Positions 1,079 through 16,383 of a stretch of DNA of 17,192 nt are shown in pieces (positions within the stretch are counted from its first letter, which is position 1; each line of letters opens with the position of its first letter). Location: positions 1,574 through 18,765 of the forward strand of contig PMJF01000083.1 in assembly GCA_003157295.1 (NCBI GenBank), read 5' to 3'. Below the pieces are notes generated by a model. It had not been told where the DNA came from, did no database searches, and saw nothing but the letters and a program-made list of their open reading frames with translations. Origin of the DNA: Candidatus Moraniibacteriota bacterium (GTDB taxonomy: Bacteria; Patescibacteriota; Minisyncoccia; Moranbacterales; UBA11712). The position numbers were made by a program, and so were the translations under genes.

Positions 1079-2481
1079 TACTTCACTTCAATTAAAAATT
1101 TCTTCAGGTCTCTTTTGCCTACAATCATCGGATATTTCAAGCCTGTCCGCTCAACAATATTAACTTTCGAGATTACCCTTTCTTTATCCATATCAAATTC
1201 CAATTTTACTTTAGGCCTTATGGTAACGCCGCTTGAAGAATAGATAATTATAATATCTTCTAAGTCAGGATGACCGACTAAATATTTATTTCGCAAATCT
1301 TCCTCGATTTGTTTCACGTTAGCCCTCGGCAGATCCGTTGGCATTTCTAGGGAAGCAAAATAATCTAACAAATCTTCATATCCTAACTCTATTGCCAGTT
1401 TCGTATCAATCGAACTTGATTGCGCCCCCGTGTCGATTTTTGCTTCCACCTCAATTTCTTTTCCGTCCTTTCCAAAAAGTTTCACTTTTTCTACCGTCCC
1501 GATAATTTTCTTTCCGGAAATGTCTTCGATTTCTTCTTCAATTTCACCTCCAAAAAGGTTCATTCCGACTGCGACGCCTTTTTCGACGGTTTTTATTTTG
1601 AGCCCCTCGACGCGGCGGAGGCGGCCCAGGAGGCCGTCGAGATTGGCCACCTGGATAGAAAGACCGGGACGGGCATTGAGCTCTAGAAACACCGGACCAA
1701 GATCGCGGTCAATGGCGACGTCGGCTCCCAAAAATCCCAGGCCGGAGATTTCTTGGGTGCGGACGGCGAGGGTCAAGATCGTCTTCCAATAGGGAATCTT
1801 GATTCCGGAAAGAAGAAGCCGGGTCCCGGGAGCATATTCGATAAGTTTATTTTTCCCCAAGACCGCCGTGGTGGTAACTCCGGTCGCCAAATCGATCCCG
1901 ACGCCGATGGCTCCCTGCTGCAGATTCGCTTTTCCGTCCGAAACTTTGGTTGGGAGGCGAAGCATGGCCATCACCGGGACTTTGTTATAAATAATTACGC
2001 GGATATCGGGAATGCCTTTATAAGCATAGGGCTTAAAGAGCTTCAAAAGTTTCATTCTTTCTTCAAAAAAAGCAATGTCGGGAACACCGGACAAAGAAAA
2101 ACTTCCGTCGATTATGTTTCTGATATGAGTCTTGAGATCGTTAACAGCAATCAATGATCCATCAGCCTTGATCCAAGTATCGGAAAAATTCTTTTTCTTT
2201 CCATAGACGACCAAAATTCCTTCTCCGCCGAAACCTCGGTTGGGCTTCAAGACAAAACTTTCCGGAAGGGTTGTCCAGTCAAAATTTTCCAGCTCATCAA
2301 CGTCTTTTATCTTGTTGATCAGCCTAGGGACAGGCATCTCCGCCTTCATGAGCATTTTTTTACTGCGGAGCTTGTCATCGGCCAGTCTTTTTGCCCGGCG
2401 AAGATTATTGGGACGGATAAACTCCAAATTACGGGCGTTCATTCCCAAAATTTTTCGGCTGTTTCGAAAAAGTTGAATCAT
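1078..2481 (-). CDS. ATP-grasp alpha-L-glutamate ligase-like protein fused to a retropepsin-like domain
   Basis: This is a 467-residue two-domain protein. Residues 1 to about 305 form an ATP-grasp ligase of the RimK-related 'alpha-L-glutamate ligase homologue' type: FVLKPNRGFGGEG (76-88) is the ATP-binding lysine and glycine loop, D160/R161 follow, and VFLELNARPGL (264-274) carries the metal ligands. Residues about 327-467 look like the RimB/DUF785 'ATP-dependent zinc protease' family, which has a retropepsin-like fold. The catalytic-type motif KIDTGAQSSSID (348-359, D350) and the closing YPMIVGKRDLKKFL (450-463) support this. In many bacteria the two parts are separate neighbouring genes, so the fusion is notable. 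The start overlaps the stop of the 7TM gene (ATGA). The known gene neighbourhood of this ligase class includes a 7TM protein, exactly as here. The amino acid or peptide it joins is unknown. Confidence 0.85.
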   Translation of the reverse strand: MIQLFRNSRKILGMNARNLEFIRPNNLRRAKRLADDKLRSKKMLMKAEMPVPRLINKIKDVDELENFDWTTLPESFVLKPNRGFGGEGILVVYGKKKNFSDTWIKADGSLIAVNDLKTHIRNIIDGSFSLSGVPDIAFFEERMKLLKLFKPYAYKGIPDIRVIIYNKVPVMAMLRLPTKVSDGKANLQQGAIGVGIDLATGVTTTAVLGKNKLIEYAPGTRLLLSGIKIPYWKTILTLAVRTQEISGLGFLGADVAIDRDLGPVFLELNARPGLSIQVANLDGLLGRLRRVEGLKIKTVEKGVAVGMNLFGGEIEEEIEDISGKKIIGTVEKVKLFGKDGKEIEVEAKIDTGAQSSSIDTKLAIELGYEDLLDYFASLEMPTDLPRANVKQIEEDLRNKYLVGHPDLEDIIIIYSSSGVTIRPKVKLEFDMDKERVISKVNIVERTGLKYPMIVGKRDLKKFLIEVK

Positions 2482-3122
2482 CGGGGCTTGATTATTTGCC
2501 TAAAGCGAAAATATTCAGTAAGACGAAGCCCGGTCCATTTACCGAGGAAAATATTGATGGGTAGAGTGAGCAAGCTGATCCAGGGATAGTGTAAAATGAT
2601 TCTGATCAGCATATCCCAGCTGGCAATATAATATCCGATAACAGAAATGATCAGGGTCTCCAGAGCCAGCACCATGGCGGCTCGCCCGCCTTTTTCAATT
2701 TGAACAGCCACGAATTTCTCAACCAGAGTGATCATAATGAGAATCGGAAAAATGGAAACGCTGGCGAGTCCCGTTCGATTATAAATCCCACCGATTATGA
2801 GGAGCGCCAAAATGGAAAAGCCGACAATCGTGATCATGATGGCGACGCGGGGAAGATAAAGAAGTCGGAACTGCTTGAGCAGCAGGCGAGTGAGCGTTCC
2901 GACAATAATGACGGTAATGAAGATCGTGATCCCGTAGCGGATCTCATTGGTGGCGAGCAGCGCGAAAGTGATAATGGCCGGAGTATAAATGCCAAAAGCC
3001 TTGATTCCGACGACTTGGCGGAAAAAGGCGATCATCGTCACGATGATCGGCAGGATCAAAACTAAAATAAGCGTATCAAGGGGGACGCCGTTGGTGAGCG
3101 CGAGTGTGATAAATTGGTTCAT
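2478..3122 (-). CDS. Stand-alone 7TM protein of the 7TM-transglutaminase type
   Basis: This 214-residue protein is almost entirely hydrophobic helices. Roughly seven segments can be drawn (about residues 17-35, 43-60, 66-84, 93-112, 120-137, 150-168 and 176-195). The family pattern is clear: an early FGIYTPAIITFAL block, then LLYLPRVAIMI, then FPILIMITLVEKF, and the closing GKWTGLRLTEYFRFR. This is the membrane domain usually fused to an inactive transglutaminase and found beside ATP-grasp ligases. Here the transglutaminase part is absent. It is the first gene of the leftward operon and overlaps the ligase-retropepsin gene by four bases. It probably anchors or exports the product of the ligases at the cytoplasmic membrane, but that is inference. 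No clear Shine-Dalgarno site precedes the ATG. Confidence 0.85.
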   Translation of the reverse strand: MNQFITLALTNGVPLDTLILVLILPIIVTMIAFFRQVVGIKAFGIYTPAIITFALLATNEIRYGITIFITVIIVGTLTRLLLKQFRLLYLPRVAIMITIVGFSILALLIIGGIYNRTGLASVSIFPILIMITLVEKFVAVQIEKGGRAAMVLALETLIISVIGYYIASWDMLIRIILHYPWISLLTLPINIFLGKWTGLRLTEYFRFRQIIKPR

Positions 3123-4571: not shown

Positions 4572-4913
4572 ATGGGAATCATTATCTCTGGAAAAGTCGT
4601 GAGAGGAGAACAAAAAGGAAAAAAACTTGGTTTTCCGACGGTCAATATTGAGCTTACAGAAAAAATGGAAAGCGGAGTTTACGCGGGATCTGTTGAAATG
4701 GGCGACAAAAATTATAAAGCTGGCATCTTTGTGAATAATGAGGGAGCATTACTGGAGGCTCATATCATTGGATTTTCTGGCGATCTTTATGGGAAAAAAA
4801 TTGAAGCTGATATTGGGAAGAAAATGAGAGACATTATTAAATTTGAGAGCGAGGAAGCGCTAAAACGACAAATTGAAAATGATATTGAAATAATATGTTC
4901 ACAGGAATTATAA
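4572..4913 (+). CDS. Stand-alone riboflavin kinase (flavokinase domain)
   Basis: Riboflavin kinase converts riboflavin and ATP to FMN. The 113-residue protein corresponds only to the C-terminal kinase domain of bifunctional RibF. It shows the signature GKKLGFPTVNI (16-26), SGVYAG (34-39), the LEAHIIGFSGDLYGKKI block (61-77), and the closing RDIIKFESEEALKRQIENDI (86-105). The FAD-synthetase half present in most bacterial RibF proteins is missing, so this gene alone would stop at FMN. A short AAGGA lies only two bases before the ATG, so the ribosome site is doubtful. The 3' end overlaps riboflavin synthase by 19 nt, indicating coupling. Confidence 0.9.
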   Translation: MGIIISGKVVRGEQKGKKLGFPTVNIELTEKMESGVYAGSVEMGDKNYKAGIFVNNEGALLEAHIIGFSGDLYGKKIEADIGKKMRDIIKFESEEALKRQIENDIEIICSQEL

Positions 4914-5497
4914 AAAAAGTATCAAAAGTCGAAAAAGCTTCGTGGCAGTCGGGCAGTCTTTTTATTGAAATAGAAATCCCGAGAGGATGGAAAGTTAAGC
5001 GAGGAGAAAGTATTTCAATTAATGGCGTTTGTTCGACTGTTAACAAAGTGATTAAAGATAGTTTTATGGTAGAATATATGCCGGAAACAGTTAAAAAAAC
5101 AACGGTCAGAGATTTAAAAAAAAGAACGCAAGTGAATCTTGAACGAAGTCTGCGGGTGGGCGACTTGATGGACGGACATATCGTGCAGGGACATGTGGAT
5201 TGCGTCGGAAGAATTATTGAAATCAAAAAAGTGGAGCAATCGGCAGTGATGAAAATTAGAATTCCGAAAGAATTCACAAAATTTCTAGCGCCGAAAGGGT
5301 CAGTTTCGGTTGACGGAATAAGTCTCACAATAGTTGATTCAAAAAAAGACTGGTTTACAATTTCACTTGTGAGCTATACGCTCGAAAATACGAATTTAGG
5401 GAAAATTAAAGTAGGCGAAAAAGTGAATATTGAAACGGACGCGATCGCAAAATATATATTTAACATTTTAAAATCTACCGGGTATGCTAAACGCTAA
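4895..5497 (+). CDS. ribE: Riboflavin synthase alpha subunit
   Basis: Riboflavin synthase dismutates two molecules of 6,7-dimethyl-8-ribityllumazine to riboflavin. The 200-residue protein starts with the family's invariant MFTGII and has two lumazine-binding repeats. The first contains GESISINGVCSTV (37-49) and NLERSLRVGD (81-90); the second starts around DGHIVQGHVDCVG (93-105) with KGSVSVDGISLTIVD (134-148) and TNLG (166-169). Length is normal. The start codon lies inside the riboflavin kinase gene and the 3' end overlaps lumazine synthase by 14 nt, so the three genes form one coupled unit. The symbol ribE is used here for the alpha-type synthase; some nomenclatures call it ribC. Confidence 0.95.
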   Translation: MFTGIIKKVSKVEKASWQSGSLFIEIEIPRGWKVKRGESISINGVCSTVNKVIKDSFMVEYMPETVKKTTVRDLKKRTQVNLERSLRVGDLMDGHIVQGHVDCVGRIIEIKKVEQSAVMKIRIPKEFTKFLAPKGSVSVDGISLTIVDSKKDWFTISLVSYTLENTNLGKIKVGEKVNIETDAIAKYIFNILKSTGYAKR

Positions 5498-5942
5498 AAA
5501 AGGAAAATCAGGAGAAATAAACGGAGCCAAATTAAAAGTTGGGATTGTTGTTTCGCAGTTTAATGATAATGTCACGCAGTCGATGCTCGAAGGCGCGCTG
5601 GAGACCTTGGCGGAAAACAAAGTCAAAAAAGAAAATATCAAAACTGTCTGGGTGCCGGGGTCATTTGAAATTCCTCTCGCTTGCCAGAGACTGGCGCAGG
5701 TGAAAAAATACGACGCATTGGTCGCGATCGGGTGTGTGATCAAAGGCGAAACGGATCACTTCTATTATATTTGCGATGAAGTTTCGCGGGGAGTAATGGA
5801 CGTGATGCTGAAATATAATCTGCCCGTCGGGTTTGGCGTGCTGACCTGCAACAATCTCAAGCAAGCCGAAGCTCGTTCGCGCGGAAAACACAACAAGGGT
5901 TGCGAAGCAGCCGAAGCGGCGCTGGCAATGATAAAAAAATAA
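5484..5942 (+). CDS. ribH: 6,7-dimethyl-8-ribityllumazine synthase
   Basis: Lumazine synthase condenses 5-amino-6-ribitylaminouracil with 3,4-dihydroxy-2-butanone 4-phosphate, just before the riboflavin synthase step. The 152-residue protein has the expected motifs: VVSQFND (22-28), VPGSFEIPLA (57-66), GCVIKGETDHFYYICDEVS (83-101, with catalytic-type H92), and PVGFGVLTCNNLKQAEARS (114-132). The closing NKGCEAAEAALAMI (137-150) is also typical. It overlaps riboflavin synthase by 14 nt. The first paralogue of the phosphohistidine-domain array starts only 9 nt after its stop with no terminator between them, so that gene is probably co-transcribed. The pathway's early genes (ribA/ribB/ribD type) are not in this window. 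Confidence 0.95.
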   Translation: MLNAKKGKSGEINGAKLKVGIVVSQFNDNVTQSMLEGALETLAENKVKKENIKTVWVPGSFEIPLACQRLAQVKKYDALVAIGCVIKGETDHFYYICDEVSRGVMDVMLKYNLPVGFGVLTCNNLKQAEARSRGKHNKGCEAAEAALAMIKK

Positions 5943-5951
5943 CTATCGCGC

Positions 5952-7481
5952 ATGAAAAAAAAGCAAGAAAAATTTGAAATGGTTGCATCTGAATATAATG
6001 TGAGCCTTTTTCCGATTTTCATGTCAGTAAACGCTTTTTGTTATGAATTTAAAAAGAATCTCGGGAAAAGGATAATTTTTGCGGAGATATTCAAAAATCA
6101 TACGGAAGAATATTATATGAAGCCGTCGATGTGGCAATCGGCTCACGCAGAATTAGTTGGAAAGATTGATAATAACAAAAAAGAACTGCAAAATATATTG
6201 GATAAAACAATTGAGCTTGGTCAAAAAATAATGAAGTTTGGCGATGCGATACCAAATAAAGTTCCTGAATTAAACAACCTCAGGCTGTGGGAAATTTATG
6301 ATAATTTTTGCAAGATTAACACGGAAGTTTATGGATACGGCTTGATGCTTCCGTTGCTTGATTTTCAAAGCTCTTCTTATCTTTCTGACAAAGTGAATCA
6401 AATACTGGAGAAAAGAGTCCTAAAAGGGAAAATTTCTGAATATTTTTCAGTGCTCACGACCCCAACAAAAGAAACCTATAGTAAGAAACAAGACATCGAT
6501 CTTTATAAAATATTAGCAAAGATCGAAAAAGAATCCCGCCTTTATAAGTTGTTTAGCAATAAAGCAGCGCATGAAATAACAAAGGAAATTAGATTAAAAT
6601 ACCCGCCTATTTTCCAGAGTCTAATCGACCATCAGGAAAAATACGAATGGGTATATTATGGGCTGGAAGGTCCGCCAAGTGATATGGAGTCTTTTATCGA
6701 ATGTATTTCGGGTTGGGTGAAAAGAAAAGTTAAAGCTGAAAAAGAGATTACTAAGAACTCCAGCTATATCGAGAAATTAAAAGAAAAACAATTTGATATG
6801 GTTCAGATGTTGGGACTGGATGACGATGAGCAATTGATAATTAATTTGGCTCGCGAAGCAGTTTTTATAAAACCCTGGAGAAAAGATGCGCAAAGTTTTG
6901 CATATTTTAAAATGGAAAAAATATTGGTGGAGATTGCTAAACGTCTGCGAATTAAAATTGATGGAGTAAGAATGATGCTGCCAAAGGAAATCAAGAAAAG
7001 TCTTAAAGATAATGTGGTCGACAAAAGAGTATTGAAAAGACGATTAGAGTATTCGCTTTATACTATTATAAATGGTGCACCGATTTTGATGGTCGGCAAA
7101 AAAGCAAAGAAATATTTCCAGGAAAATTTCAAAATTGAAGTTAGCAGATTGGGACAAATTAATGAACTGAAGGGAACAGTATCTTGCGCAGGAAAAACAA
7201 AAGGACGAGTGACAATTGTGAATATGCCAGGCGATATGAAGGAAATGGAGGAAGGCGATATCTTAGTTTCTTTCGCGACTAATCCCAATTTGATGCCGGC
7301 AATTCGTAAAGCTGGCGGGATTGTGACAGACGAAGGCGGGTTAACTTGCCATGCGGCCATTGTTTCCCGCGAACTTCGCATTCCGTGTGTTGTTGGGACG
7401 AAAATAGCAACAAAGGTTCTAAAAAATGGGGACTGGGTAGAAATGAATGCAATTAATGGAACAATAAAGTTGATAAAATAA
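5952..7481 (+). CDS. P1: unknown domain + C-terminal PEP-utilising mobile (phosphohistidine) domain
   Basis: This is the first of five paralogues in the window (509 residues). The last 110 or so residues are a phosphohistidine swivelling domain of PEP synthase/PPDK/rifampin phosphotransferase. It holds ELKGTVSCAGKTKGRVTIV, then GDILVSFATNPNLMPAI, and the active-site block [16 protein letters not shown] with the phosphate-accepting histidine at 467. The remaining 400 residues are helical, rich in lysine and aromatics, and lack both the ATP-binding domain and the PEP-binding barrel. Two blocks shared with P2, P3 and P5 stand out: EYFSVLTTPTKET (163-175) and YEWVYYGLEGP (231-241). By analogy to rifampin phosphotransferase this part may hold the substrate, but that is inference. 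The gene follows ribH by 9 nt and precedes P2 by one base. Confidence 0.85.
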   Translation: MKKKQEKFEMVASEYNVSLFPIFMSVNAFCYEFKKNLGKRIIFAEIFKNHTEEYYMKPSMWQSAHAELVGKIDNNKKELQNILDKTIELGQKIMKFGDAIPNKVPELNNLRLWEIYDNFCKINTEVYGYGLMLPLLDFQSSSYLSDKVNQILEKRVLKGKISEYFSVLTTPTKETYSKKQDIDLYKILAKIEKESRLYKLFSNKAAHEITKEIRLKYPPIFQSLIDHQEKYEWVYYGLEGPPSDMESFIECISGWVKRKVKAEKEITKNSSYIEKLKEKQFDMVQMLGLDDDEQLIINLAREAVFIKPWRKDAQSFAYFKMEKILVEIAKRLRIKIDGVRMMLPKEIKKSLKDNVVDKRVLKRRLEYSLYTIINGAPILMVGKKAKKYFQENFKIEVSRLGQINELKGTVSCAGKTKGRVTIVNMPGDMKEMEEGDILVSFATNPNLMPAIRKAGGIVTDEGGLTCHAAIVSRELRIPCVVGTKIATKVLKNGDWVEMNAINGTIKLIK

Positions 7482-7482
7482 T

Positions 7483-9039
7483 ATGAAAAAAGATTTGTGG
7501 GTCAACAATTTTTCTGTCCACCGCTCAGGATACCAGCTGGGCGCGCCGGTTTTATACGGTATAATCAACACCCAAAAGATTCTATTTGGTGCGAAAAAAC
7601 CGATGGCGCTCAAAAATTATTTCATGGTTTTTGAGGGTCCAGATATGGTCAAAGCGATTCACAAGAAGAAAGAAGTGAGAAAACTAATTGAAACCACAAT
7701 CAAAGAGATTTTCCAGAATCCAAAAAAACTTGACAGGATTCACAAAGAAACATACAAGCTAAACGCCCAATATTTTTCCCACGCTAAAAGTTGCTCAAAA
7801 GTCGACCTCAAAAATATAGGTGACAAAGAATTGGGTAGAATTTATCTCAAGCTCATTGAATGGCAGGAAAGAGCTCACCAGCACGCCTTGGCAACGACAT
7901 GGTATCTCGATAGCGACGGGGAGGATTTTTCCAAGCTGCTCATTGAGAAAACGAAAGAATTTTGCCAAGCATCGGGAACAAAAATAAATTTCGCGGATGC
8001 TTTCAGTATTTTGACAACCTCCACCAGAAAAACTCTGGCCACGCTAGAAGAAACGGAATCGCTGGAAATTCTGCGCATAATCCTAAAAGACAAGAAAGCT
8101 AAAAATATTTTTATAAATTTACGGGATTATCGGTCTATCCCGTCAGGACTTTCGGAAAATATTTCAATGGCAATCAAAAAGCATTTTAAAAAATGGAAGT
8201 GGTTGGCTTTCAACTATATGGGACCGGCCTATGAAATAGATTTTTTTCTGCATATGTGGTCAGACCTTGCTAAGCAAAAATTTGATGTTGCAGAGGAGAT
8301 CAAAAAGAAAAATGATTGGGCAGGCAAAATAAGAGATCAAAAAACAAAAATTATCAAAGGGCTGGGAATAGGCAAAAAATGGCGCGGAATTTATAACATC
8401 GCGGCGGACGTCGTGAATCTCAAAGGTTACCGGAAAGAAGTCTGCTTTCATGGATTTTATGTCATGGACGCGATGCTTCGCGAGATGGCTAAAAGGCTGA
8501 ACCTTGCCCGCAGCCAGATGTATCTTCTCACTTTCCAAGAGATTGGCGATATTTTTTTGAAAGGAAAAAAAGTTGATGTAAATAAAATAAACAAAAGGAA
8601 CGGATTCACCATTTTGGATTATAAAAAAGGAAAAATCCGCGTGTTCACGGGAAATAAAGCCAAAAAATATTATTCTTCCGTAAATATTGAAAAAGTAATA
8701 ATCGATAAAAACATCAAAGAATTGCTGGGAACCTGCGCTTGCAGTGGCCATGCTAAAGGCACTGTGAAAATCATCAATGAAGTGAGGGAAATGAACAAAA
8801 TGAAGAAAGGGAATGTGATGGTATCTCATACCACTTTTCCTAATCTTGTTCCGGCCATGAAAATGGCTTCGGCCATCATCACCGAAGATGGCGGCATGAC
8901 ATGCCACGCAGCGATTGTCGCGCGGGAACTCGGCAGACCCTGTATCACCGGCATAAAAATTGCCACCAAAGTTCTCAAAGATGGCGACTTGGTCGAAATT
9001 GACGCGGACAATGGGATAGTGAAAATAATCAAAAAATAA
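7483..9039 (+). CDS. P2: unknown domain + C-terminal PEP-utilising mobile (phosphohistidine) domain
   Basis: This is the second paralogue (518 residues). The C-terminal swivelling domain contains ELLGTCACSGHAKGTVKII, then NVMVSHTTFPNLVPAMKMA, and TEDGGMTCHAAIVARE with the expected phosphohistidine at 475. It closes with KIATKVLKDGDLVEIDADNG. Upstream are the two shared blocks of the array, DAFSILTTSTRKT (172-184) and WKWLAFNYMGP (238-248), in a region otherwise very different in sequence from P1. No ATP-binding or PEP-binding domain is present, so it cannot be a full PEP synthase. It begins one base after the P1 stop and lacks a Shine-Dalgarno site, suggesting re-initiation. The substrate is unknown. 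Confidence 0.85.
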   Translation: MKKDLWVNNFSVHRSGYQLGAPVLYGIINTQKILFGAKKPMALKNYFMVFEGPDMVKAIHKKKEVRKLIETTIKEIFQNPKKLDRIHKETYKLNAQYFSHAKSCSKVDLKNIGDKELGRIYLKLIEWQERAHQHALATTWYLDSDGEDFSKLLIEKTKEFCQASGTKINFADAFSILTTSTRKTLATLEETESLEILRIILKDKKAKNIFINLRDYRSIPSGLSENISMAIKKHFKKWKWLAFNYMGPAYEIDFFLHMWSDLAKQKFDVAEEIKKKNDWAGKIRDQKTKIIKGLGIGKKWRGIYNIAADVVNLKGYRKEVCFHGFYVMDAMLREMAKRLNLARSQMYLLTFQEIGDIFLKGKKVDVNKINKRNGFTILDYKKGKIRVFTGNKAKKYYSSVNIEKVIIDKNIKELLGTCACSGHAKGTVKIINEVREMNKMKKGNVMVSHTTFPNLVPAMKMASAIITEDGGMTCHAAIVARELGRPCITGIKIATKVLKDGDLVEIDADNGIVKIIKK

Positions 9040-9040
9040 T

Positions 9041-9089
9041 TTTTCCAAAAAAAAGAAGCCCGACTCACGATGTAACGTTGGAGTCGGGC
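9041..9089 (-). terminator. Rho-independent terminator of the histidine phosphatase gene
   Basis: A perfect nine-pair stem, GCCCGACTC (9058-9066) with GAGTCGGGC (9081-9089), encloses a 14-nt loop. On the minus strand it is followed by TTCTTTTTTTTGG, a proper U-tract. On the plus strand no U-tract follows, so it is assigned to the minus-strand phosphatase. It lies immediately after the P2 stop codon. Confidence 0.88.
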
Positions 9090-9136
9090 CACTTGTCAGT
9101 CGGAGCTAGGTGCAGCTCTGCTGAGTTGGTGCGGGT

Positions 9137-9784
9137 TCAGAATCCGCGGTCGATGAAGCTGACGGCTTCCAAGCTCACGGAGGTAATCTCACCGTTCGTT
9201 TTTACAGCGATGAACTGGTAATAAACCATGTCTGCCTCACGGAGCCGTGGGAAATTTGGATCGGTCACGGCCAACTCGATGGTTGGGCTGTGGCTGCCTA
9301 TGAAGACATTGCGTGTTACGTTGCCTTCGGCGTCGAAAGCCTGCTCAGTGGCCACATCTTTGAGGCCCTGGTAAACGCGGCCACGGAGGAAATCCGTCCA
9401 GGCGGGGGCTCCTTTCCCCCATGTGCCGATAGTTTCTTTCTCGATGTTGTGTTCTTTGCGGTAGGCTTTTTCACCCTCGGTCACGGCCTTAGTGTCGGTG
9501 ATGCCGGGGGCGAGGCAATAGTCGAAGGCGGCGCGCCGGCGAATCTTCATTAGGTGAAACGCGGGTCTTGTGTTGGCCATGGCCAAGTCGGCGGTTTCGA
9601 ATCCCCGCTTGCGCAGGGAGCTGTAATAGCCATGCAACGGTATTCCGCCAAAATTTTTCACGCAGCTCATCGCCACTTGCTCCCGGCCTTCTTTGGTCAG
9701 GGCATCGCCGTTCTTGTCGCCATGGCGCATGCCGTAAATGTTCACTTTCACCGTTTCAATATTCACAGGGGGTTTAGTGTTCAT
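9137..9784 (-). CDS. Histidine phosphatase superfamily protein (RHG motif)
   Basis: This 215-residue protein belongs to the phosphoglycerate-mutase-like histidine phosphatases. The signature YGMRHGDKNGDALTKEGREQ (17-36) provides the phospho-accepting H21 and R20. SSLRKRGFETAD (55-66) gives the conserved arginine region, and FIGSHSPTIELA (161-172) gives the second active-site histidine, H165. The ATG at 9784 was chosen because AAAGGAGAT precedes it at good spacing; an in-frame ATG at 9847 has no such site. Family members act on sugar phosphates, phosphoproteins or phosphohistidine (SixA), so the substrate is open. It is distinctly more GC-rich than its neighbours, lies antisense within the paralogue array, and has its own promoter and terminator. 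This suggests acquisition as a unit. Confidence 0.88.
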   Translation of the reverse strand: MNTKPPVNIETVKVNIYGMRHGDKNGDALTKEGREQVAMSCVKNFGGIPLHGYYSSLRKRGFETADLAMANTRPAFHLMKIRRRAAFDYCLAPGITDTKAVTEGEKAYRKEHNIEKETIGTWGKGAPAWTDFLRGRVYQGLKDVATEQAFDAEGNVTRNVFIGSHSPTIELAVTDPNFPRLREADMVYYQFIAVKTNGEITSVSLEAVSFIDRGF

Positions 9785-9785
9785 G

Positions 9786-9798
9786 CAAATCTCCTTTG
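9786..9798 (-). promoter_or_regulatory. Strong Shine-Dalgarno site that fixes the phosphatase start
   Basis: On the minus strand AAAGGAGAT stands about 4-6 nt before the ATG at 9784. Nearly all other genes in the window lack such a site, so it both decides the start and sets this gene apart from its neighbours. Confidence 0.85.
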
Positions 9799-9813
9799 GA
9801 CATTGGCACCAGG

Positions 9814-9886
9814 TGCCGTTAGTTAACTCTAATCCAGCAAGAAGCATTCATTTTTTTCAGGCTGAGTTAGAGCTAACTAAACGGCA
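9814..9886 (-). promoter_or_regulatory. Large imperfect hairpin in the phosphatase 5' UTR
   Basis: The arms 9814-9838 (TGCCGTTAGTTAACTCTAA...CAGC) and 9861-9886 (GCTGAG TTAGAGCTAACTAAACGGCA) are complementary over about 20 positions with one bulge and few mismatches, around a 22-nt loop. It lies between the predicted transcription start (about 9917) and the start codon. A second, mutually overlapping palindrome, GGCACCAGGTGCC (9805-9817), shares bases with the end of the hairpin, so the two folds would compete. Confidence 0.6.
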
Positions 9887-9923
9887 AATGAATATATGTT
9901 CACTTTATAAAGAACAACTGGTT

Positions 9924-9952
9924 ATTATAGCCTCTTTTATCATAAATGTCAA
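9924..9952 (-). promoter_or_regulatory. Perfect-consensus sigma70 promoter of the phosphatase gene
   Basis: On the minus strand TTGACA (9952-9947) and TATAAT (9929-9924) are exactly 17 bases apart, all twelve positions matching consensus. Transcription should start near 9917, giving a 5' UTR of about 130 nt. It is the strongest promoter visible in the window. Confidence 0.88.
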
Positions 9953-9987
9953 GTTTAGGCTGTTTTCGTAAAGCATTGGAAAAAAGC

Positions 9988-10016
9988 TTGTAAAATAGGC
10001 ATTTTTCGGGTATATT
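9988..10016 (+). promoter_or_regulatory. Promoter of the P3-P4-P5-ATP-domain operon, likely leaderless
   Basis: TTGTAA (9988-9993) and TATATT (10011-10016) are separated by 17 bases. Counting about seven bases on, transcription would begin at or next to the ATG at 10023, so the mRNA is expected to be leaderless. It lies back to back with the phosphatase promoter, 35 nt away. Confidence 0.65.
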
Positions 10017-10022
10017 TTGGTT

Positions 10023-11495
10023 ATGAGCAAGGCAAGAAAAAATAGAGAAACGAAAGAGGAGTGGCTCGGTTTCAATTGGCCCGGTGTACATGTGCTTCAA
10101 GGCTATCCATCTGCGAAAGCCTGGTGGTATGATTTCCCAAAAGTTGGCTGTCCGCTTTCCAAAATGGCTTTGACCTATTCCAAGGGAACGATGTCATATT
10201 ACATCATCCGCGACGAGTTCGAGGGCCACGGGCAGAAATTTTTAGAAAAAATAAAAATAAAACCGGAAACAATGCTCGACGTGCTGGAAAAAGTCGATGA
10301 AGCGGTGGAAGCTATTTTCGCTCTCGGAAAAAAATGGCGCCGGATTGATTTTCGTCGTTTGCCCGACAAAGAACTTTTGCGCTATCATCGAGAGCTGTTT
10401 TATTGGGATGAGATATTGTGGCGCAAGGGGCAGATTCAAAATCTTCTGGAGCTTCACAATAATTATTTGTCTGCGTATGTTCGAGAATTAATAAACGCAA
10501 CTTTCGGAAAAAACAAGGAAGCCGAATATTTTCAAGTTTTGAGCGCGGGCGATTATCGAAGTATGTCGGAACGGCAGGACGAAGATTTTGCCGAATTAGT
10601 AAAGAGAATGAAAAAGATAAAAAGGGCGAGCAAGGAATTTGAAAAGTTGTTGAAGAAACACACGGAAAAATATACTTGGATGATTTATGGCTGGACGGGA
10701 CCGGCACTCCAGAGCCAATATTTTCTGGAAAATGTTTTAGTGGCGCTCAGAGACTCCAAAGTGCAACCCGTGGCCCAAAGGAGAAAGGCAGATAGAAAAA
10801 TAAACAGACGGAAAAGAGAATCCATTATCAAAAAATTTAGCGGGAGTGATCAAAAGCTGGTTTATCTGTTGCGAAAATTACTGGACGCCAAAGCCATAAG
10901 GGTGGATGCACACTCGTTGACCTATTTTATGGGTGACAAAATTTATGCCGAAATCAGCCGGCGGAAATTTATTTCCATCAATCAACTGCGGGTCGTGCCG
11001 CCGGAAGAAGTACCAAAATTATTTCAAAAAAGCGATTCCCATCAGCTGAACGCCGAATACGATTTTGTCATCTATTGGTACGAGCGGGGGAAAGGACTCA
11101 AAAAGTTTGTCGGTGCGGATGGAAAAAAGAAATTTCAATATATCAAGAAGCGCTTGCCGAAGATTAAGCGAGTTGATGAGATTAAGGGTGAAATGGCCTA
11201 TATGGGAAAAGCAAAAGGACAAGCGAATCTAATTTTGGAGCAGGCCGATTTTCCAAAATTCAAAAAAGGGGAGATACTCGTCACCAGAATGACAGATCCA
11301 TCCTTCGTTCCTTTGATGAAAATCAGCAAGGCGATTGTGACGGACATCGGCGGGATTACCTGCCACGCGGCGATTGTTTCCCGGGAACTGAAAATTCCCT
11401 GCGTCATCGGGACAAAAATAGGCACAAAAGTCTTGAAAACCGGAGATTTGTTGGAAGTTGATGCTAATCAAGGAATTGTGAAAAAAATAAATTAA
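10023..11495 (+). CDS. P3: unknown domain + C-terminal PEP-utilising mobile (phosphohistidine) domain
   Basis: This is the third paralogue (490 residues from the ATG; a TTG two codons earlier is less likely because it would sit at or before the predicted transcript start). The C-terminal swivelling domain has [19 protein letters not shown], then [17 protein letters not shown], and [16 protein letters not shown] with the phosphohistidine at 448. Shared array blocks are [13 protein letters not shown] (168-180) and [11 protein letters not shown] (217-227). The first 70 residues are rich in tryptophan and tyrosine (WLGFNWP, KAWWYDF), perhaps a ligand-binding surface. There is no ATP or PEP domain. 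It is the first gene of the second operon, and P4 starts 5 nt after its stop. Function unknown beyond phosphotransfer by homology. Confidence 0.85.
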
Positions 11496-11500
11496 ACTAT

Positions 11501-12583
11501 ATGCCGAAAAAAATAATTTATGAAGAACATCCACGAGAATATACGGTGCTGGGTATTTCTGTTATGGGAAACGAGGTATCCGGCCGCAGATACAAAAAAT
11601 TCCTGGGAGCCGGATTTTCTGAGATGATCTCTGTCATTGAGAACGGCCGGTACTATTATTGCCAGCCAGTCGGCGAATGGGAAAAAATCGGTCGGGCATT
11701 TTTGCGTCGGGTGAACAAAGGAAAGGTGAATTTATCCTCCGAACTCGTAAAATTTAGAAAAGATGTTTCAAGATTTGAGAAGCTGCTGGGAAAAAGCGAG
11801 AAGAATTTTTATCTCCAAGATATCAAAGATTTCTTTCAATACTACTCAAAGCTTGCCGCTATGACTTGCGTTGGTTACTCAACCCTTGATTACATCGATG
11901 AACTTGATCGAAAAAAGCAAGCGAGATATCAAGATTGGGTTGAAAAGGTCAGGCTGCTCAGTGAAAATGTTTATAAGGTCGGAGAAATTGAGTTTGTGCC
12001 GAGGTATACAAGCTGGCTAGCAAAGACGCATTTGCCTAAATATAAACCGGAAGAATTGCCATACGTTTTTTTCCGAGAAATGGAAGATTTCATAAACAAA
12101 GGAAGGAAGCTGCCTGATCCGAAAATTCTGCGCGCGAGGAAAAAGTTATTTTATATGAGACAATATCCTTTCAACCAGGTTCAATTGTTAACTGGTGAGA
12201 TGGCAAAAAAAGAAATTCAAAGAAAAGGATTGCTGCAAAAGAAAGAACTAGACCCAGACATTAAAGAACTTCTGGGACAAGTTGCCCATCCAGGAAAAGC
12301 AAAAGGGAAAGTCAAAGTTATTTTTGCCAGGAAAGAAATGGTGAAATTCAAAAAAGGTGATGTCCTTGTTTCTCCCATGACCGAACCCGGTTATCTGCCG
12401 ATTATGAAAAAGGCCGCCGCTATCGTCACGGACGAAGGGGGATTACTCTGTCACGCGTCCATCGTCGCCCGCGAGCTCAAAAAACCCTGCATCATCGGCA
12501 CCAAAATCGCGACAAAAGTTTTGAAGGATGGGGATTTGGTGGGGGTGGATGCGAACAAGGGAATAGTTAGGATTTTAAAATAA
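11501..12583 (+). CDS. P4: short paralogue with C-terminal PEP-utilising mobile domain
   Basis: At 360 residues this paralogue is about 130-160 residues shorter than the other four. The C-terminal swivelling domain is intact: ELLGQVAHPGKAKGKVKVI, GDVLVSPMTEPGYLPIM, and TDEGGLLCHASIVARE with the histidine at 318. The usual Thr two residues before the histidine is Leu here (LLCHAS), the only such case in the array. The two central blocks shared by P1, P2, P3 and P5 cannot be found, so the deletion falls in the middle of the variable region. The frame is clean and the gene sits 5 nt after P3 and 10 nt before P5, so it is a shortened, apparently maintained family member rather than an obvious pseudogene. 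Confidence 0.82.
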   Translation: MPKKIIYEEHPREYTVLGISVMGNEVSGRRYKKFLGAGFSEMISVIENGRYYYCQPVGEWEKIGRAFLRRVNKGKVNLSSELVKFRKDVSRFEKLLGKSEKNFYLQDIKDFFQYYSKLAAMTCVGYSTLDYIDELDRKKQARYQDWVEKVRLLSENVYKVGEIEFVPRYTSWLAKTHLPKYKPEELPYVFFREMEDFINKGRKLPDPKILRARKKLFYMRQYPFNQVQLLTGEMAKKEIQRKGLLQKKELDPDIKELLGQVAHPGKAKGKVKVIFARKEMVKFKKGDVLVSPMTEPGYLPIMKKAAAIVTDEGGLLCHASIVARELKKPCIIGTKIATKVLKDGDLVGVDANKGIVRILK

Positions 12584-12593
12584 CTAAAAACTT

Positions 12594-14093
12594 ATGAGAG
12601 TAAAAGGGTTTCATATTTTCCGGATCAGGTACAAATGGCATTTTCCGCCGTTTCCTTCGATACTTTGCACAGAATATTGTTCATCGTCCTTAGCGGTGAA
12701 AGAATATGGGTTGCGTTTCAAAAATAATCTGCAGGCTTATGATGAAGAAAAAATGTATACCACTATTGGCTACAAGGAAGATTTTGACAAATTTGGCCAA
12801 TATTTTTTAAAAAGATTTTTGAGAGAACCGCAATATCTTTCAATGCTGGTAAAATGGAGCGAGAAAAACAAGGATTCTTTGAAAAAATATTTGGAAGATA
12901 ATTTTTCAGGAGATGTTGAAAGATTAAGCAACGATGAAATCTGGAAAAGATTGAACGGTTATGTGAAAAAATATCGCTATTTTCATCTGAAAAACACACC
13001 CGCCTGGTGGCTGGGATCCGATCCGGTCGAAGCGGAATTGAGAAAAAATTTGAAACGATTTAAAGACGCGGGTGAAATATTTGAAGTTATAACGGAGCCT
13101 TTGGAATACCAAACTGAAAATTTTTTGGAAGAAACTTCTCTCTTGAAAATTGCAAGTTTTGCCAAGAGGAAAGACTTTGGAAAAATATCTGAAAAAGAAA
13201 TTGATCCGGAATTGAAAAAGATGCTCGCTAAACACATTGATAATTTTTCTTATATTCCCTTTGGCTATAATACTGGAGTGGTCTGGAGCGATAAATATTT
13301 TTTCAGGAAAACAAACAAACTGCTCAAGGGGGATCCGGAAAAATTACGGAAATCCATCGCTGATAATATAAAAAACAAAATTGCCAAAAGAGAGGAAAAA
13401 ATTGAAGAACTGAAATTATCAAAAAAAGAAATCATATTAGCCAAAGCGTTGCGCTCACTGGCTTATCTGCAGGAACTCAAGAAGGCTGCGCAAACCAAGA
13501 GTCATCCCTTGCTGAATTCATTGGTTTATAGGGAACTATCGCGACGGCTCAAGGTTCCCCTGAGGATATTCGATTATATGTCATATCCGGAAATAGAGGC
13601 GAGTCTCAAAAGGGGAGTTTCTGCTGAGCTTAAGCAAGAAATTAAAAAGAGAAGGCGAGTGTCGGCGGTGATTATGGAAGATCTGACATATCGCTGGATA
13701 TATGGAGAAGAAGTAAAGAAAATTTTACGAGCCAATAATTTTGTTCAAGAAGATAGCAATAGCCGCGTATTAAAAGGAGTGGCGGCTTCCAGAGGTTTTG
13801 CGAGAGGAAAGGTGGCTGTGTGCGTTTTTTCAACCCAGATAAATAAAATTAAAAAGGGAGATATTTTGGTAGCGGGTATGACCACGCCGGATTTTGTCCC
13901 AGCCATGAAAAAAGCGGCGGCCGTCATCACGGACGAAGGCGGAATAACTTCTCACGCCGCAATTGTTTCCAGAGAGCTGAAAATCCCCTGCATCATTGGC
14001 ACCAAAATTGCTACTAAAGTTTTGAAAGATGGCGACTTGGTGGAAGTGGACGCGGATCAGGGAACAGTCAAAATAATCAAGAAAGCAAAATAA
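12594..14093 (+). CDS. P5: unknown domain + C-terminal PEP-utilising mobile (phosphohistidine) domain
   Basis: This is the fifth paralogue (499 residues). The swivelling domain holds LKGVAASRGFARGKVAVCV, GDILVAGMTTPDFVPAMKKA, and [16 protein letters not shown] with the histidine at 454. The TSHAA form resembles pyruvate phosphate dikinase, whereas its siblings have TCHAA as in PEP synthase. Shared blocks EIFEVITEPLEYQ (161-173) and FSYIPFGYNTG (218-228) are present. The N-terminus has its own aromatic-rich stretch. The ATP-binding-domain gene starts one base after its stop, so the two are surely co-transcribed and probably made in step. No ATP or PEP domain of its own; substrate unknown. Confidence 0.85.
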   Translation: MRVKGFHIFRIRYKWHFPPFPSILCTEYCSSSLAVKEYGLRFKNNLQAYDEEKMYTTIGYKEDFDKFGQYFLKRFLREPQYLSMLVKWSEKNKDSLKKYLEDNFSGDVERLSNDEIWKRLNGYVKKYRYFHLKNTPAWWLGSDPVEAELRKNLKRFKDAGEIFEVITEPLEYQTENFLEETSLLKIASFAKRKDFGKISEKEIDPELKKMLAKHIDNFSYIPFGYNTGVVWSDKYFFRKTNKLLKGDPEKLRKSIADNIKNKIAKREEKIEELKLSKKEIILAKALRSLAYLQELKKAAQTKSHPLLNSLVYRELSRRLKVPLRIFDYMSYPEIEASLKRGVSAELKQEIKKRRRVSAVIMEDLTYRWIYGEEVKKILRANNFVQEDSNSRVLKGVAASRGFARGKVAVCVFSTQINKIKKGDILVAGMTTPDFVPAMKKAAAVITDEGGITSHAAIVSRELKIPCIIGTKIATKVLKDGDLVEVDADQGTVKIIKKAK

Positions 14094-14094
14094 T

Positions 14095-15087
14095 ATGTTC
14101 ACAAAAACATTCAAAGAACTTTCAAAAAAAGATGTCGGCATTGCCGGTGGAAAAGGGGCGTCGTTGGGCGAGATGACTCGAGTTGGAATTCCAGTGCCGC
14201 CGGGGTTTGTGATTTTGGCTGAGGCTTTCGATCGATTTTTGGAAGAAACAGACTTGGGGGTTGAGGTTGTTTCGCTTCTCAAGAAAATAAATTACAAAGA
14301 TCTCAACTCGGTGGATGCAGCTTCCTATCAGATCAGGGATCTCATCCATGATGTTCCGATGCCAAAAGATCTGGCTAAAATATTTATATCAGAACTCAAA
14401 AAATTGAAAGCATCCTACGTTGCCGTTCGCAGTTCCGCCACGGCTGAAGACTCCGCGGTGGCATCGTGGGCGGGGGAGCTGGAAACTTATCTCAACACCA
14501 CGGAAAAAAATCTTCTCGAAAACGTCAAAAAATGCTGGTCGTCTCTTTTCACGCAAAGAGCTTTGTTCTACGCTTTTGAGAAACAGGTGTTCACTAAAAA
14601 ACACCAGCAAAAAATCCGGGCCGGAACATCGAAAATAAAAGATTCATATCCAGTGAGTGTGGCGGTCGTGGTTCAAAAAATGGTCCAGTCGGAAATTTCC
14701 GGCGTGACATTCACAACGCATCCCGTGACGCAAGACAGCAATCAAATGGTCATTGAAGCTGGATATGGATTGGGTGAAGCGATTGTTTCTGGGCAAATTA
14801 CTCCCGACGCCTATGTCATCGACAAGCGCGATTTCAGCATAATCGACATCAACATTTCCGACCAAAGCCGGATGATTGTGAAGAAAAAGAGCGAAGGCGT
14901 GGAGTGGAAACCGGTTGTAAAAGCAAAGAGCGCAAAGCAAAAACTTTCCGGACAGCAGATTGTGGAGCTCGCGAAACTTTGCGACAAATTGGAAAAACAT
15001 TATAAGCAGCCCCAAGACATCGAATGGGCGCTGGAAAAAGGGAAAATGTATATCACCCAATCCCGGCCGATCACGACGTTGTCGTGA
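14095..15087 (+). CDS. Stand-alone PEP-synthase/PPDK-type ATP-binding domain protein
   Basis: The 330 residues match the complete N-terminal nucleotide-binding domain of PEP synthase, PPDK and rifampin phosphotransferase. Motifs in order are AGGKGASLGEM (17-27), VAVRSSATAED (109-119), SGVTFTTHP (202-210), EAGYGLGEAIVSG (221-233) and DIEWALEKGKMYITQSRPIT (308-327). In full-length enzymes this domain phosphorylates the histidine of the mobile domain using ATP. Here the protein ends exactly at the natural domain boundary, with no mobile domain and no PEP/pyruvate barrel (a typical PEP synthase is close to 800 residues). The gene follows P5 by one base and closes the operon. The obvious inference is that it supplies phosphate in trans to P1-P5. 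Confidence 0.9.
   Translation: MFTKTFKELSKKDVGIAGGKGASLGEMTRVGIPVPPGFVILAEAFDRFLEETDLGVEVVSLLKKINYKDLNSVDAASYQIRDLIHDVPMPKDLAKIFISELKKLKASYVAVRSSATAEDSAVASWAGELETYLNTTEKNLLENVKKCWSSLFTQRALFYAFEKQVFTKKHQQKIRAGTSKIKDSYPVSVAVVVQKMVQSEISGVTFTTHPVTQDSNQMVIEAGYGLGEAIVSGQITPDAYVIDKRDFSIIDINISDQSRMIVKKKSEGVEWKPVVKAKSAKQKLSGQQIVELAKLCDKLEKHYKQPQDIEWALEKGKMYITQSRPITTLS
15071..15087 (+). repeat. Perfect 7-bp hairpin over the stop codon of the ATP-domain gene
   Basis: TCACGAC-GTT-GTCGTGA is a perfect inverted repeat whose last three bases are the TGA stop. No U-tract follows, so it is not a classical terminator. It may stabilise the 3' end or pause ribosomes; this could also be chance. Confidence 0.4.
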
Positions 15088-15135: not shown

Positions 15136-16383
15136 CTATTTATTTAGAGCGATGGGATTACTAGTTGGGCTGTTTATAGGACAGAAGTTAAAATCTTTTT
15201 TCTTGTATTCCATCAACCCGAAAAACTTGAAAAATATAAATTCGTCTTCAGGAGTGTATCCGGTTTGAGGCGGGGCGTAATAAGAAACATTTTCATCAGT
15301 TACTCCAAGAACTGCGCCCACTTCGTCTGAATTGTTTTTATCCTCGTTGCTTTTATTGGAATCTTCCTCATCGGAGGATGTTTCTTTTTCCGGCGGGCTT
15401 GCCTGCAATGCTTCATTTTGCGATGTGGGCGGGGAAATCCAATGCCACTCACCGTCTATTTTCACATAAGCCTCATCATCGGCGATTTTTTCTTTTTGAT
15501 ATTCAACAACGTTCGTCACTTTTCCGTCGGGCATGACAAGCTGAATTTTTCCATGCTTGTTGTTGAGAGAAAATTTGCATATCTCGCGAGTGATCGTTTT
15601 TGTCTCGTTTGGCCCTAGGCTGATTTCGCTGCTAATCGGGTGGTTATATATTTTGTCATCCGATCCGGACGCGATTTTCCATCCCTGAAGTTCAATTTTT
15701 TTGCCTGAATTGTTCCTGATTTCCACAATTTCCCCATCAGAATCATTTCCGACAGGGTTGGGGACGGTTTTTACGATCTCAAGATCGGGCCGGGGATATT
15801 TTTTCACCGCGAGGACGAAACTTTTCACGACCGTTTGTGAATCATCGCCGACGGTTAGCGTCACGGTGTATTTTCCGGTGTCGAAATATTTGTGCGAGGT
15901 TTTTGCAAGATAACTTTTCTTTCCATCACCAAAGTCCCAAGTATATCTTAACTTTTTTGTTTCTTTATCCTTGGCCTTGGCGGAAAAGTCAGTGTAGAGG
16001 TCTTTGTAGGCATATTTGAGCTTTGTGATTTTCACTTCCGGCTCGGAATCGAGCTTGTTTTTCTTTCCGGGAGTGAGATATTTACTCCATTTCCAGTTTT
16101 TGTCGTTGAAGTTAAACGAAGAGTCTTCTAGAGTTTTGTCCCAAGAAACACTTGAGGTGATATCTCCCTGTGGGTCAAACAGAGTAACAGTTTCTTTGGA
16201 ATTATTGAGTGCGAGCTTAGACTCAGGGCGATATACGGCCAGATATTCACCGTTTTTTATTTCCGTATGTTCTTTTAATACATATTTTCCCGTTTTTGAT
16301 CCGTCGCGAATTGTCCATCCAAAGAGGTCTACTGGTCCGTTTTCTTGATTTACGATTTCTATATATTCATTGTCTGTCCCTAA
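15136..16383 (-). pseudogene. LTD-PKD-LTD surface protein, truncated at its 5' end
   Basis: Reading leftward from about 16383, the frame encodes a first lamin-tail domain (GTDNEYIEIVN, then PVDLFGWTIRDGS). A PKD domain follows (YTWDFGDGKKSY, then GKYTVTLTVGD), then a second lamin-tail domain (PNPVGNDSDGEIVEIRN, then IELQGWKIASGSDD). After that come an acidic low-complexity linker and a tail ending PTSNPIALNK. Such proteins are common on CPR cell surfaces. Homology to the first lamin-tail domain stops near 16380, and upstream the frame closes with a stop at about 16408. No start codon or signal peptide is present upstream; a GTG at 16035 would cut the protein after the first domain. The gene has therefore lost its 5' part, by rearrangement or by an assembly join. 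Confidence 0.7.

Follow-up and report, generated by a model that had tools for sequence, protein, structure and literature searches.

An array of five phosphohistidine proteins and one stand-alone ATP-grasp subunit in a Candidatus Moraniibacteriota genome suggests a split dikinase with a shared charging subunit

The genome of a Candidatus Moraniibacteriota bacterium (assembly GCA_003157295.1; 1.02 Mb in 84 contigs, 90% completeness), a lineage placed by NCBI within the Patescibacteria group, carries on contig PMJF01000083.1 an array in which a gene for an ATP-binding protein follows 5 genes for phosphohistidine proteins. We analyzed a stretch of 17,192 nucleotides of this contig (hereafter the window; coordinates count from its start). 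Nine co-directional genes on the plus strand (4572–15087) encode a riboflavin kinase, ribE, ribH, 5 proteins that we call P1 to P5, and an ATP subunit (Table 1). The series starts upstream of P1, at 4572, with the riboflavin genes, which overlap one another, and the gaps further downstream measure only 1 to 10 bases except for the P2/P3 interval, which holds an opposite-strand gene of 236 codons (9137–9847). Proteins closely related to P2 and to the ATP subunit carry the name Candidatus Moranbacteria. We consider it probable that the P proteins and the ATP subunit together form a modular small-molecule dikinase of the two-component type, in which one charger is shared.

All 5 P proteins end in a swivel domain recognized as Pfam PEP-utilizers (PF00391, E 3.5e-24 to 2.4e-27, from position 1 or 2 to 72 of the 72-position profile), and the swivel histidine motif GGxxxH is intact in 5/5 of them, as a preliminary description of this DNA had claimed for these paralogues. 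The same description assigned a different N-terminal region to each protein, yet these regions are not 5 unrelated domains: a P2-family profile joins P2 to P1, P3, and P5 (Table 1; database size set to 1000), and P4, which scores merely 0.021 in that search, is tied to the substrate domains of rifampin phosphotransferase (RPH) and its like by its predicted fold, in which residues 1–360 align with RPH residues 325–867. For P2, the RPH-like fold was assigned through a fused relative, and for P1, P3, and P5 by profile only. Full-length relatives of P2 occur fused to an ATP domain (e.g., P0017, 46% identity over 100% of the query). Out of 7998 candidates scored against P2, 652 gave a match at E 0.001; in the sources, such proteins bear no more specific name than “PEP-utilizing enzyme” or “phosphohistidine swiveling domain-containing protein.” These comparisons correct the earlier reading in that the P substrate domains appear to be of a divergent RPH kind, and since the P proteins are similar to RPH in its substrate-plus-swivel part, the whole set looks like a two-component small-molecule dikinase.

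The open reading frame at 14095–15087 matches PPDK_N over nearly the full profile (PF01326, positions 3–312 of 328), in keeping with the earlier view of a single separate gene for a complete ATP domain. Residues 5–329 of its product align with the RPH ATP domain (chain 7–316), and the nucleotide-contacting residues Lys22, Arg117, and Thr136 that are named for RPH in the available parts of its description (PMC4844700) correspond, counted on this alignment, to K20, R112, and T131 of the ATP subunit. Judged by their E-values, the PF00391 and PF01326 matches exclude chance. The ATP subunit scores best with PEP (phosphoenolpyruvate) synthase models and somewhat lower with RPH, while RPH family models score far below cut-off on the proteins of the array. 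As already stated in the preliminary description, the PEP/pyruvate barrel is missing from the 6 proteins: Pfam lists PF02896 for neither P1 to P5 nor the ATP subunit, while the PEP synthase that this genome also encodes does show it.

Table 1. Genes of the array and the opposite-strand gene within it. pLDDT, predicted local distance difference test.
Feature	Coordinates	Strand	Evidence
Riboflavin kinase, flavokinase domain only, 113 aa	4572..4913	+	Pfam PF01687 E 2.5e-27
Riboflavin synthase ribE, 200 aa, overlaps both neighbors	4895..5497	+	Pfam Lum_binding PF00677 E 3.4e-47, over two segments
Lumazine synthase ribH, 152 aa, stops 9 bases upstream of P1	5484..5942	+	Pfam PF00885 E 4.5e-57
P1, substrate and swivel domain (swivel, residues 402-509), 509 aa	5952..7481	+	PF00391 E 3.5e-24; GGLTCH; P2-family profile E 3.5e-51
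P2, substrate and swivel domain, 518 aa	7483..9039	+	PF00391 E 2.6e-24; fused relatives
Histidine-phosphatase-like protein, 236 aa	9137..9847	-	RHGD motif; His_Phos_1 E 0.033, below cut-off; clusters with above-cut-off proteins
P3, substrate and swivel domain, 492 aa	10017..11495	+	PF00391 E 2.8e-24; GGITCH; P2-family profile E 4.3e-26
P4, short form, substrate domain of ~250 residues and swivel, 360 aa	11501..12583	+	PF00391 E 1.2e-24; predicted model pLDDT 95.7, aligned with RPH
P5, substrate and swivel domain, 499 aa	12594..14093	+	PF00391 E 2.4e-27; GGITSH; P2-family profile E 2.9e-17
ATP subunit, 330 aa, stand-alone and complete ATP-grasp domain of PEP-synthase/RPH type	14095..15087	+	PF01326 E 6.2e-95; RPH alignment; own clade

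The strongest evidence that one ATP domain may serve several swivels comes from fused chains in other genomes. Single frames join one ATP domain to one swivel (711 aa, locus L113), two (1047 aa, L155), three (1508 aa, L171), or four (1799 aa, L042 of genome G049), with GGxxxH present in 10/10 swivels and around 230 to 330 residues preceding each of them; Pfam confirms the two swivels in L155 and the three in L171. Because these are metagenome assemblies, an assembly fault is possible in a fused frame. Separate genes show the same one-to-many relationship. Six of 54 relatives and, in a phylum sample, 15 of 145 genomes have at least 4 PF00391 matches (the source genome being counted in both), and genomes G095 and G123, both estimated to be 98% complete, combine 8 and 9 PF00391 matches, respectively, with one PPDK_N place each, in frames of 319 and 312 codons; seven and eight P genes were called in the stretches examined. 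A search of related genomes for such sets had been proposed in the preliminary description, and its notion of a split dikinase, in which a single ATP subunit goes with several subunits for phosphohistidine and substrate, is supported both by other genomes and by fused chains.

In a wider survey of 80 ATP-subunit loci in named genomes, many of them cut by contig ends and six from genomes already in earlier sets, the ATP frame lacks a swivel in 77 (one of which additionally has a separate ATP–swivel protein), and only the fused form is present in the other three. The number of swivel genes per locus is 0 in 16, 1 in 23, 2 in 16, 3 in 4, 4 in 8, 5 in 6, 6 in 4, and 7 in 3. When the whole genomes behind the 16 swivel-free loci were searched, a PF00391 match was found in 14/16, though in two of these it is confined to frames of 807 and 823 codons, in one to a 40-codon fragment, and one has no more than a 63.7-bit match. 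The most matches in this group, 19, belong to a Magasanikbacteria genome (G205, locus L135). They lie in two runs, one on its contig C1 (around 17.7–32.7 kb) and one on C6 (around 6.8–14.7 kb).

The content of swivel genes varies strongly between related genomes. Among 48 substrate domains from 13 genomes, counterparts of the window's own at 25% or more were found only for P2 (78%) and P1 (27%), both in G007, which like G002 and G006 belongs to the same family as the source genome. In G001, a genome of the same genus, homology to the window stops at 5936, within ribH, and restarts at 14986, so that around 9 kb comprising P1 to P5 and most of the ATP gene are missing. This genome keeps the final 32 codons of the ATP gene beside ribH (C28 around 34100–34700; L174:6540–6690). 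Its sole PF00391 match sits in a frame of 823 codons, and no stand-alone ATP domain is present elsewhere in it. Charger and acceptors are jointly absent, and a single deletion is the simplest reading.

The source genome also encodes a PEP synthase, and the preliminary description had named such a full-length enzyme, with the 6 genes as its degraded fragments, as an outcome that would speak against its reading. A 791-codon frame reaching the edge of contig C78 is a PEP synthase (TIGR01418, 1158 bits against a cut-off of 740) with ATP domain, swivel, and barrel. Its presence, together with the absence of the array from the same-genus genome, which makes the array dispensable, is what can be said for a view of the 6 genes as functionless remnants of a dismantled PEP synthase. 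We regard this as exceedingly improbable, since frames and motifs are intact and similar sets recur in other genomes. The ATP subunit shares just 42% identity with the ATP domain of the C78 enzyme (over a 215-residue piece) but 85, 83, and 82% with the stand-alone subunits of G002, G006, and G007 and 55 to 67% with seven more ATP domains, of which three belong to fused chains, and it falls into a separate clade together with the stand-alone subunits from other genomes. The ratio of nonsynonymous to synonymous substitution rates (dN/dS) is 0.03 to 0.07 in four ATP pairs and 0.06 to 0.14 in three P pairs, rough values because dS is 0.9 to 2.2 and thus near or beyond saturation; by this measure, the ATP subunit is under purifying selection. 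Identity, clade, and dN/dS speak against a degraded PEP synthase, and the fragment reading fails even though the enzyme exists.

The split as such is already known from HpeHI, CreHI, and PpsAB, for which the available parts of the published account describe a separate ATP-grasp subunit and a substrate-plus-swivel subunit with an RPH-like fold and no PEP/pyruvate barrel (PMC12167813). As far as that account goes, our array resembles these systems in its stand-alone ATP-grasp subunit (with a phmmer match to HpeI, 9goj, at E 1.1e-44) and in second subunits whose C-terminal swivel, with GGxxxH, comes after an RPH-like substrate domain. It differs from the single pairs described there in that one ATP subunit stands with five P proteins, and elsewhere with up to eight per array, and in that relatives have multi-swivel fusions with up to four modules per ATP domain. 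One ATP subunit per substrate subunit is a feature of the pairs described in those parts rather than one stated there to define the family; their substrates are given as phenolic. RPH, in the available portion of its description, has the same ATP domain, substrate domain, and C-terminal swivel in the same order once the parts are lined up, but as a single chain instead of separate genes, and P4 is around 180 residues shorter than the matching RPH part. The prodigiosin ligases PigC and RedH likewise have an ATP domain, a substrate region, and a C-terminal swivel, and their models match the ATP subunit and the C-terminal parts of P proteins (in P4 and P5, the swivel domain plus part of the adjoining region); unlike the proteins here, they are single chains, and all these matches lie far below the curated cut-offs. 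PEP synthase shares the ATP and swivel domains but has its swivel in the middle instead of last and also carries the barrel that the 6 proteins lack. The likeness to the phosphotransferase system (PTS) that the preliminary description saw is no more than an analogy: in outline, one energy-coupling protein faces several specificity proteins via phosphohistidine, and the swivel is homologous to that of enzyme I, whose models match the swivel part only. The donor here would be ATP rather than PEP, the enzyme I barrel is absent, and each swivel is joined to its own substrate domain. It is the form with a shared charger and many acceptors, together with the multi-swivel chains, that looks new, in the light of a partial literature search and with no claim of absence from print.

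Domain anatomy, intact motifs, one-to-many gene content, fusions, purifying selection, and joint absence in the same-genus genome are the observations from which we propose a mechanism. The ATP subunit would bind ATP and phosphorylate the swivel histidine of any of the five P proteins, releasing AMP and Pi; each charged swivel would then swing over to the divergent, RPH-kind substrate domain within the same chain, where a bound small molecule would receive the phosphate. The dikinase chemistry would be that of HpeHI, PpsAB, and RPH, in which, according to the available parts of the respective reports, the histidine attacks the beta-phosphate of ATP, the gamma-phosphate is hydrolyzed, and the beta-phosphate travels on the swivel to the substrate (PMC12167813, PMC4844700). 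Transfer would occur in trans, and each P protein would presumably have a different substrate. HpeH and HpeI are described, in the same portion of that account, as forming no stable complex (PMC12167813), and by analogy a transient partner like HpeI could serve several acceptors.

Several observations weigh against a shared charger. Some ATP subunits have no visible partner in the genomes with swivel-free loci, and G025 has a swivel gene, at a contig end, with no PPDK_N match. The PEP synthase of the source genome may be an alternative donor to the swivels. Furthermore, co-adaptation to one ATP partner might produce a clustering of swivels by genome, and we therefore looked for concerted evolution but saw none: the nearest neighbor comes from the same genome for 4/41 swivels and 7/41 substrate domains (around 4.96 in shuffles), and mean identity within versus between genomes is 51.8% versus 51.1% for swivels and 16.0% versus 15.5% for substrate domains. 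Swivel matches below 90 bits (by which G019 and G035 were lost) and duplicates from overlapping stretches of G006 were left out of the nearest-neighbor count.

Riboflavin genes accompany the array in several lineages. Of 54 relatives, 12 have ribH, and 8 of these 12 have a swivel gene outside PEP synthase (a weak match in G024), within around 11 kb of ribH in 7 of the 8 (G000, G002, G006, G007, G013, G025, and G048). At L161, L162, and L151, riboflavin kinase, ribE, and ribH stand in varying order among P and ATP genes, and L127 has ribE, ribH, the ATP gene, and two P genes; G004 and G010 have riboflavin genes and no array. 3,4-dihydroxy-2-butanone 4-phosphate (DHBP) synthase was found in 0/54 relatives and GTP cyclohydrolase II in 0/12 ribH genomes, with positive controls in 14 and 10 of 14. 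The pathway is thus apparently truncated in the ribH genomes, whose cells may complete riboflavin synthesis with intermediates taken up from outside; a role of one P protein in making the missing four-carbon phosphate is speculation. RibD_C matches in 9/12 ribH genomes may be other reductases. As a general role of the array, riboflavin was rejected, given that just 4/74 further loci have both ribE and ribH close to the ATP gene and that none of the riboflavin genes was recognized in the 20 loci of a second set, save one weak flavokinase match. At the array head of G007 (L039:3–740, plus strand), a riboflavin kinase domain is fused to a PD-(D/E)XK nuclease-like domain (PF13366).

Many arrays have nearby proteins that carry an RHG motif and score anywhere from weakly to well with His_Phos_1; the evidence is uneven. 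The product of 9137–9847 clusters with L038:10994–11668 and L062:2999–3613, both above the His_Phos_1 cut-off. In a first set (18 loci, 15 genomes), phosphatase candidates were found in 12 genomes: 5 with His_Phos_1 at an E of at most 0.05 (of which G006, G014, and G032 pass the Pfam cut-off and G000 and G002 do not), two that are 46 to 53% identical to such a protein, three by clustering only, G007 by motif only, and G049 by a distant link without Pfam support. The second set (20 loci, 16 genomes) gave candidates in six genomes, one by clustering only, and profiles built from proteins of both sets detected 11 in a third set of 74 loci (10/58 with a swivel gene, 1/16 without). Twenty control regions (400 kb) from nine first-set genomes gave 0 by profile and 2 RHG motifs whose identity was not looked up; another RHG match, L055:17385–18236, is a nucleoside phosphorylase. 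Histidine phosphatases are hence no universal array partner (12/15 and 6/16 genomes; 11/74 loci), and those that are present might act on products or on phosphohistidine. An RHG-motif protein of 307 to 310 aa lies directly beside one P family (substrate domains 61–83% identical) in four genomes (L037:11612–12535, minus; L041:14523–15455, plus; L045:5778–6701, minus; L046:2583–3506, plus), possibly as a kinase–phosphatase pair.

What such a kit would be used for can be weighed with the shared charger left unchanged, and the likeliest role is that of a co-expressed set phosphorylating or activating scavenged or pathway metabolites, with flavin-related substrates possible where riboflavin genes interleave. 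The P proteins might act successively on one molecule in a biosynthetic pathway, phospho-activating it like PigC/RedH, with neighboring methyltransferase, amidotransferase, and phosphatase genes finishing the product. Co-directional genes 1 to 10 bases apart fit this, a single chain with four swivel modules suggests joint action, P4 and P5 partly match the ligase models, and methyltransferase, asparagine-synthase-like, HAD, and metallophosphatase genes lie near some arrays. Yet only the riboflavin and histidine-phosphatase-like neighbors recur widely, and the window array is without a methyltransferase or amidotransferase gene; we see a pathway as a serious but unlikely candidate. Similarly unlikely, in our view, is that each P protein phosphorylates a different scavenged metabolite and thereby retains it in the cell, a salvage function akin to the trapping of scavenged compounds that the authors of the HpeHI work propose in the available part of their paper (PMC12167813). 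The incomplete look of the riboflavin genes and the strong differences in swivel-gene content among related genomes speak for it; independent scavenging fits the fused four-module chains less well. Phosphorylation of antibiotics or toxins, as by RPH, would agree with the similarity to the RPH fold and with P sets that differ among relatives. A fold does not reveal the substrate, though, and detoxification, which we consider improbable, would not lead one to expect riboflavin genes paired with arrays in several lineages.

The rest of the window offers a few observations of its own. Upstream on the minus strand (107–1078, 1078–2481, and 2478–3122), two ATP-grasp proteins that are related to each other adjoin a 7TM_transglut membrane protein; the second of the two has a zinc-protease-like part at its C terminus (PF14397, PF05618). 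Directly after the ATP gene lies a gene for a protein with PKD and lamin-tail domains (15136–16035, minus strand), relatives of which flank the arrays of G006, G007, and G002 (in L037, L039, and L046). A PADLOC search of seven proteins gave 0 matches at E 0.01, and a defense system is not supported.

Taken as a whole, the array leads us to suggest, tentatively and with not quite even confidence, that Patescibacteria may run an ATP-driven counterpart of the PTS. In it, one charger would supply exchangeable phosphohistidine specificity subunits with pockets of their own (up to 19 swivel matches per genome), partly fused (up to four acceptors), that salvage or build metabolites including flavin-linked ones. 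The fusion series and the eight- and nine-swivel genomes with one detected ATP domain make the shared charger directly testable. If true, it would give a working function to proteins that now bear merely generic names, and it would amount to a modular kinase chassis in bacteria with reduced genomes, about whose small-molecule economy little is known.

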